A DNA stretch of 64,000 nucleotides, from assembly GCA_902386205.1 (NCBI GenBank), contig CABMIH010000075.1:1-64000 (forward strand), in the 5' to 3' direction. A program made the translations under genes and the position numbers. This DNA is from an uncultured archaeon (GTDB taxonomy: Archaea > Halobacteriota > Methanosarcinia > Methanosarcinales > Methanoperedenaceae). Positions 2,463 through 3,735 of the stretch are shown here, piece after piece; positions within the stretch are counted from its first letter, which is position 1; each line of letters starts with the position of its first letter. The notes beneath the pieces are model-generated. The model was not told the origin of the DNA and searched no databases. It saw nothing but the letters and a program-made list of their open reading frames with translations.

Positions 2463-2487
2463 ATTTTTTGTGAATCAAGCAGTAACC

Positions 2488-2523
2488 TTAAATACTATAG
2501 TTCGTAAATATACGAACTATAGT
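2488..2523 (+). promoter_or_regulatory. TATA box with abutting 13-bp palindromic operator, MsvR-box-like
   Basis: TTAAATAC (2488-2495) is a strong archaeal TATA box preceded by an A/C-rich BRE-like AACC. It runs directly into a perfect inverted repeat with arms 2494-2506 and 2511-2523 around the four bases AATA. The core is TTCGTA-N4-TACGAA, which matches the inverted repeat described for MsvR, the methanogen V4R-family redox regulator. The expected start of transcription is near 2515-2520, so a bound repressor would block it. No annotated gene follows on this strand, so the controlled transcript is probably a short RNA or the 55-codon frame. Confidence 0.6.
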
Positions 2524-2573
2524 GGGCAGATATAAAACTTTTTTTACCACCATAAACCCTACCTGCCCACTAT
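2519..2573 (+). repeat. Inverted repeat (11-bp arms), possible small-RNA stem
   Basis: ATAGTGGGCAG (2519-2529) pairs perfectly with CTGCCCACTAT (2563-2573) across a 33-base loop containing a run of seven T and a C-rich tract. The left arm overlaps the right end of the operator and lies where transcription should begin. An RNA from this promoter would therefore start with this stem. Confidence 0.5.
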
Positions 2574-2689
2574 CCTCCTACCATTTCCTGACAACAAGCC
2601 AAGGATATATATTTCCAGATGAAATTGAGGATACTCTGTTAAAAACATTATTACAGAAAGGAAAAATGTTAAAATTGAATCGCAATTGA
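2522..2689 (+). CDS. Possible leaderless 55-residue protein starting with GTG
   Basis: A frame opens at GTG (2522), almost exactly where transcription should start from the TATA box at 2488-2495, and runs to TGA at 2687-2689. Its second half (GYIFPDEIEDTLLKTLLQKG, then basic residues) looks like a helical protein, and the first half does not. No family is recognised. It overlaps the inverted repeat at 2519-2573, so the transcript may instead be non-coding. Confidence 0.25.
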   Translation: MGRYKTFFTTINPTCPLSSYHFLTTSQGYIFPDEIEDTLLKTLLQKGKMLKLNRN

Positions 2690-2972: not shown

Positions 2973-3037
2973 ATGAGGTTGGCACATTATCCACCTATTC
3001 CTAACCACCACATAGGAACTTTTTTTGCCAACCTCAT
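2973..3037. repeat. 65-bp nested hairpin element
   Basis: Outer arms ATGAGGTTGGCA (2973-2984) and TGCCAACCTCAT (3026-3037) are perfect complements. Inside them TTCCTA (2998-3003) and TAGGAA (3013-3018) form a second perfect stem. Both the loop and the inverted repeat at 2519-2573 contain ACCACCA and ACTTTTTTT, so the two may be related. It could be a small RNA, a terminator for the convergent VOC gene or a miniature mobile element. Confidence 0.5.
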
Positions 3038-3075: not shown

Positions 3076-3654
3076 TCATTTAAAACCGTGGAAAAGTTCA
3101 CTTCCAGCGCCGGGGTAAACTATCCTGTCCCCTGGAGGCGTTACGCGTTTTACTTTCGGCCATTTATCCTGCGGCTCCGGGCCTTCAAGTGCAGTTTTGA
3201 CAGGCTGCCTGTCCCCCATATTCGGGTGTTTCCTGACATCTACCCCTTCCACATTGTGGCTGAACTCAACAGGGATATTATTTGGGTCATAAGCATAAAT
3301 GGAGTGGATGAAACCATGGTCAATGACCTCGGAAACCCAGAAACCTGCGGCTTCCAGTTTGTCTTTCAGTTCCCACAGGTCATCTTCAGTCTCAACACCA
3401 AATGAAACATGATCAAACCCGAACGGGCCCCCGACAGGTCTTCCATGTTCCTTCTTTTTCATAGGTTCCACGCCGTCCCACTCAAAGAACGCTATAAGGT
3501 CAAAAGGTGATATTTCGAAAAAGTAATGCCTGTATCCCGGCTGCCCCAGGCCCGCCACGAGGCGCATGCCAAGAAGGTCGCGCCAGAAGCGTATTGTCCG
3601 GTCCATATCGCCCGTTGCCATTGCAAGATGATTTACTCCGTTGAATTTTATCAT
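3076..3654 (-). CDS. VOC-superfamily (glyoxalase/dioxygenase fold) protein
   Basis: This 192-residue protein starts with NGVNHLAMATGDMDRTIRFW, the first beta-alpha-beta module of vicinal oxygen chelate enzymes, followed by GFDHVSFGVETEDDLWELKD and IYAYDPNNIPVEFS. The histidines of NHLAM and DHVSF and the glutamate of PVEFS match the usual metal ligands. Members include glyoxalase I, ring-cleaving dioxygenases and methylmalonyl-CoA epimerase; the substrate is not evident. The start is the ATG at 3654, with GGAGG five bases upstream. It diverges from the MCM gene. Confidence 0.78.
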   Translation of the reverse strand: MIKFNGVNHLAMATGDMDRTIRFWRDLLGMRLVAGLGQPGYRHYFFEISPFDLIAFFEWDGVEPMKKKEHGRPVGGPFGFDHVSFGVETEDDLWELKDKLEAAGFWVSEVIDHGFIHSIYAYDPNNIPVEFSHNVEGVDVRKHPNMGDRQPVKTALEGPEPQDKWPKVKRVTPPGDRIVYPGAGSELFHGFK

Positions 3655-3735
3655 GATTTCCTCCACTGTTCCATGTCTGCCATGTTAATTCTGTCTCGAA
3701 ACCTTGATGTACTTTTCGGGCTTTAGTAGTTCCAA

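Follow-up and report, generated by a model that had tools for sequence, protein, structure and literature searches.

Y RNAs and other end-to-end-paired RNAs have paired 5′ and 3′ ends, an open pyrimidine-rich loop and a promoter of their own. The RNA gene described here, found in a window of 64,000 nucleotides (the whole stretch of DNA analysed), is like the Y RNAs in these respects but has no sequence match to them (no Rfam hit). Among archaeal RNAs, sRNA41 and sRNA154 of Methanosarcina mazei cover ribosome-binding sites (reviewed in PMC5867862), and sRNA162 of the same species is 191 nt long, forms three stem loops and was found only in Methanosarcina (PMC3510493). All are intergenic, as is the window RNA. 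The RNA family to which the latter belongs differs from sRNA162 in its length of about 65–90 nt, its single closing stem and its class-wide, multi-copy occurrence; it is not known to have been described as a family and is absent from Rfam. Its likeness to sRNA41 and sRNA154 is that of a free-standing intergenic RNA with its own promoter.

The second point of comparison is the MsvR regulon of methanogens (MthMsvR, MaMsvR), with its motifs TTCGTA-N4-TACGAA and TTCG-N7-9-CGAA at the promoter; MaMsvR of M. acetivorans binds DNA only when reduced and represses its own gene (PMC3729527). Binding failed once its AT-rich flanks were exchanged for sequence of more than 40% G+C, and at M. acetivorans rpoK a motif match alone was insufficient (PMC3729527). 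The window carries the same kind of motif at a promoter, and its own genome encodes an MsvR with a V4R domain, the three cysteine positions and a site at the msvR promoter. Known MaMsvR sites are upstream of the TATA box, whereas the operators of the RNA genes are downstream of it, and known MsvR sites control protein genes, whereas here the site belongs to a small RNA gene and is repeated over many paralogues.

Layout of the locus and conservation of the hairpin

The BRE/TATA promoter element AGTAACCTTAAATA (2481–2494, plus strand) can be read directly from the sequence. Between it and the predicted transcription start is a motif match to the MsvR operator TTCGTA-N4-TACGAA, TTCGTAAATATACGAA (2501–2516), which is the sole exact match within the 64 kb window. 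It forms the core of a palindrome with fully (100%) complementary arms of 13 bp (2494–2506 and 2511–2523) and a spacer of 4 nt. Judged from the sequence, the arm length of the window copy is partly chance, and the conserved portion is the 16 bp core. The predicted 5′ end of the RNA is at 2516–2522, and an 11 bp closing stem begins at this expected start, its 5′ arm AUAGUGGGCAG (2519–2529) pairing with the 3′ arm CUGCCCACUAU (2563–2573) by both folding and alignment. The alignment of copies further defines a U7 run inside the loop (2539–2545), conserved as a U-run, and a pyrimidine-rich loop ACCACCAUAAACCCUAC (2546–2562; family form ACCACCAUAAUCCCC). A single-stranded tail, CCUCCUA (2574–2580), is similar to the anti-Shine-Dalgarno end of 16S rRNA. 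Covariance model R3 matches 2517–2580 on the plus strand with 66 bits (E 2.5e-17, E-values being rough because the calibration was shortened). The 66 nt RNA folds at −16.7 kcal/mol (z = −5.6), and with the palindrome included z is −7.3, a value equalled by none of 200 shuffles. The original prediction had described the TATA box, the perfect palindrome and a stem at 2519–2573 opening at the expected start, all of which are there, and the core it had ascribed to MsvR is indeed a motif given in PMC3729527.

A TATA match of at least 7/8 stands about 25 nt 5′ of the RNA in 56 of 57 fetched copies from the Methanoperedens family, in 9/9 further copies of the own genome and in 46 of 49 copies from outside the family. 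In the family alignment 95.6% of stem cells are paired; where one side alone has changed, G-C has become G-U in the sense strand, so that the plus-strand RNA keeps the pair. A covariance model also found diverged copies outside the family, with a different stem (GUGAGCGGG/CCCGCUCAC) and the loop CUAACCCCCACUCCCC, which these copies have in common even though it is absent from the search model. When both sets were aligned jointly, both sides had changed at 10 of the 13 stem pairs, giving 66 such cells where shuffles gave 26.8 (0/500); these pair counts are biased towards structure because the sequences were chosen by a structure model, a bias of which the shared loop, the fixed-distance TATA box and the distribution are free.

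Distribution, gene context and two forms of the RNA

Copies of the RNA were found in 32 of the 34 genomes of the family (the Methanoperedens group) by DNA similarity and in all 34 by covariance model. With the wider model R3 they were found in 175/186 genomes at the level of the order and in 221/238 at that of the class; when genomes were sampled across the phylum and searched at the same R3 threshold, 83 of 84 class genomes and none of 309 others had a copy, among the genomes listed. Most genomes of the order outside the family have one to five copies by R3, and those inside have 3 to 25. About 14 are present in the own genome, and in the further copies located there by DNA search the parts follow one another as in the window. 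Wherever a contig bearing the full layout is named, it comes from Candidatus Methanoperedens or a close relative. The aligned family copies have in common the promoter, operator, stem, U-run and loop ACCACCAUAAUCCCC, and often also a CCUCC tail. A known RNA family was rejected, since Rfam gave no match other than tRNAs, either at the gathering threshold or at E 0.1. A plasmid-borne repeat was likewise set aside for want of a relevant match, as were the non-archaeal matches of a pattern scan of the genome collection, which, among the matches listed, look like chance and do not have the layout of TATA box, U-run and loop. Literature searches with the loop sequences returned unrelated papers only, and neither MsvR nor small RNAs in Methanoperedens were the subject of any paper in the literature searched.

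The GTG-started frame of 55 codons noted in the original prediction is open at 2522–2689, but the same position yields anything from 3 to 92 codons in other copies, and the frame is put down to chance. It also has no Pfam match, and that it is a small protein gene has next to no chance of being right; the protein-coding reading was rejected on the lack of conservation. The next gene 3′ of the window RNA (3076–3666) is convergent, and among the fetched family regions 42 downstream genes were convergent against 9 on the same strand (p 3e-6, the tandem copies not being independent). In a smaller set, in which regions from outside the family predominate, the counts were 15 and 10 and the bias was not significant. 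Because the frame is unconserved and the next gene usually faces the RNA, the element is best read as a free-standing non-coding RNA gene, intergenic and with its own promoter. The same orientation bias led us to reject the idea that the element acts in cis as the 5′ leader (an attenuator or riboswitch) of the downstream gene; this reading is highly improbable even though one locus of the own genome has such an arrangement. There, at G000:C67:9771 (L182, L006), an ORF with a CxxCH motif and a ribosome-binding site is preceded by a pair of operator-like repeats and by a short, variant hairpin, possibly an instance of the element turned leader. A miniature, MITE-like mobile element that has inverted repeats and merely spreads would fit the tandem and dispersed multiple copies in Methanoperedens and the second conserved block found about 200 bp downstream in one subgroup. 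Such an element is nevertheless very unlikely, given the compensatory stem changes, the fixed TATA spacing, the conservation across the class and the mostly one or two copies per genome in the sister family f7. The window element is almost certainly a conserved non-coding RNA gene, and the proposal that gene calling had missed a transcript here is strongly supported by the conserved promoter, the covarying hairpin and the class-wide spread. The gene facing the RNA is an hdrB-like 3′ end at several copies and unrelated at others, so no single target gene is implied.

The RNA occurs in two forms. A universal form, present in the own genome and throughout the class, has the loop CUAACCCCCACUCCCC and no palindrome; this loop is nearly invariant across the class and is sometimes repeated. 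The form seen in the window has the loop ACCACCAUAAUCCCC together with the palindrome, and coexists with the universal form in the own genome, where copies that have no operator mostly carry the universal loop. Presence of the operator is associated with loop type (Fisher p 7e-5). If the palindrome mattered, it might be expected to persist in relatives, as the original prediction had implied, and family copies do keep it: the operator stands in the same place in 52 of the 57 fetched family copies, these regions having been chosen largely by operator-containing searches, against 1 of 49 copies outside the family. A CCTCC tail is found in 23 of 53 operator-bearing copies, 1 of 13 family copies that have no operator and 2 of 36 copies outside the family. 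With the operator confined largely to the family and tied to loop type, the window RNA is seen as a derived offshoot, equipped with the operator, of an old RNA. One copy outside the family (L248:811–902, minus strand, genome G053) has an operator, TTCGTATATAGACGAA, with a wholly different stem and a similar loop.

The predicted MsvR site

The own genome encodes an MsvR (a match to the NCBIfam equivalog NF053755 at 269.6 bits, the cut-off being 220) with an ArsR-type helix-turn-helix and a V4R domain, in which three cysteines are spaced 26 and 8 apart, as are C206, C232 and C240 of MaMsvR. A TTCG-N8-CGAA site is present at 7/7 msvR promoters of the family (the own genome and six orthologues); the site of the own genome is TTCGTACAAAAACGAA, and sites of this type stand just before the TATA box. 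Operator-related sites number 11 in the own genome, compared with 4 for a reversed control pattern. Lying between TATA box and start, the RNA-gene operator is placed as would suit a repressor. From this sequence evidence the palindrome is probably an MsvR site, and we lean, less firmly, towards induction of the operator-bearing RNA by oxidation.

Some other regulator, an ArsR/TrmB-type protein apart from MsvR, could instead read the operator of the same RNA gene, in which case the RNA would not be redox-controlled. The flanks give some reason to consider this, the left 17 bp being about 24% G+C and the right 17 bp about 41% G+C, the latter set against the need of MaMsvR for AT-rich flanks (PMC3729527); a motif was not enough at rpoK, and the family has a V4R paralogue with a different palindrome of its own. 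On the other side are the msvR genes themselves, all seven of which bear a site of this kind at a constant position in the promoter, and a further site 5′ of hdrA2 in the own genome. Another regulator is, on balance, unlikely, and MsvR is retained as the probable ligand of the operator. The hdrA2 site, TTCGTATTAATACGAA (G000:C80:1638; L193:1638–1653), is 5′ of a gene matching NCBIfam HdrA2, and control of this heterodisulfide reductase by MsvR is possible. The V4R paralogues of Methanoperedens (L168, L170, L171) do not have the MsvR motif, and near their promoter is a palindrome of their own (for example TTAGATATTTATCTAA in L170). An ORF of genome G091, itself with no Pfam match, has in its 5′ region TTCGCATACATACGAA and then an unrelated 10 bp hairpin (L250:1501–1640).

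Mode of action and neighbouring elements

Pairing with translation starts was scored for 93 genes, each loop being compared with 60 shuffles of itself; the genes were chosen for Shine-Dalgarno-type starts, which makes the test rough. The consensus loop of the operator type paired better than 60/60 shuffles, while the 16S tail, used as a positive control, was matched by 1/60. For the window copy, neither its own loop (24/60 shuffles as good) nor its tail (7/60) clearly favoured the translation starts. The universal loop showed no preference for the translation starts of the 93 genes (52/60 shuffles as good). These results make anti-RBS action possible for the derived branch, going by predicted pairing; for the universal form, protein binding looks the more likely role. 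The two modes of action are about equally probable.

From the observed structure, conservation, covariation, operator and presence of MsvR, we infer with good confidence a free-standing sRNA that would be repressed by MsvR under reducing conditions, released on oxidation and active in trans. Its gene is one among some 14 paralogues in the own genome and belongs to the class-wide archaeal family. Transcription would begin about 25 nt 3′ of the TATA box, and the 5′ and 3′ parts of the RNA would pair, exposing the U-run and the pyrimidine-rich loop. Reduced MsvR would occupy the operator and block the promoter; oxidised MsvR would leave it, and the RNA would be made. The RNA may then act in trans via the loop and the CCUCC tail. 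The likeliest way would be to mask G-rich ribosome-binding sites, with the sequestration of an RNA-binding protein common to the operator-less sister RNAs about as probable.

The strongest competitor, to which we give somewhat less than an even chance, is that the RNA acts as a protein-binding sponge or forms part of an RNP, the protein being, for example, Sm-like or of another pyrimidine-binding kind; copies with an operator would then serve as inducible decoys of the universal form. The near-invariance of the universal loop is more easily reconciled with binding by a protein than with a variety of mRNA targets, and its indifference to translation starts points the same way, whereas the altered loop of the operator-bearing branch and its more frequent CCUCC tail do not. 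A related scenario is put forward tentatively: a nearly universal RNA of the class may have a core function via its fixed loop, probably in an RNP, and one lineage may have duplicated it and placed the copies under a thiol-based redox repressor, giving a whole set of oxidation-induced variants that compete with the housekeeping form. If the trans-acting, MsvR-controlled model is true, the operator-bearing branch would give the MsvR redox response its first small-RNA arm, as far as the literature search showed. Anaerobic methane oxidisers, which meet nitrate, nitrite and oxygen, would then turn a redox signal into post-transcriptional control. As the class includes Methanosarcina and the ANME-2 lineages as well as Methanoperedens, the function of so nearly universal an RNA is testable in a genetically tractable host.

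Other elements were seen around the RNA gene. A second conserved non-coding block (2741–2815), CATCATnATnATnAnnATnATnAT then TTTYTCCAATAGAAATAAAGGGGTTGAATAAT, is about 180–210 nt 3′ of the RNA and recurs, after an unconserved spacer, in one subgroup (L002, L018, L019, L020, L027, L029, L030, L033, L200 and L290); its GGGGGTTA is complementary to UAACCCCC of the universal loop. At 2973–3037, a perfect 12 bp inverted repeat (ATGAGGTTGGCA/TGCCAACCTCAT) encloses CCACC and a T7 run (z = −6.2 as RNA). Its likeness to the small RNA is only marginal (15 bits by covariance model), and it was not merged with the copies. A 75-codon ORF at 2235–2462 has no family match, and is conserved at the DNA level in the related locus L018. 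The hairpin GAGCTTGCTTGTTT/AAACAAACAGCTC at 2688–2720 has its pairing kept in L018 despite changes on both sides.
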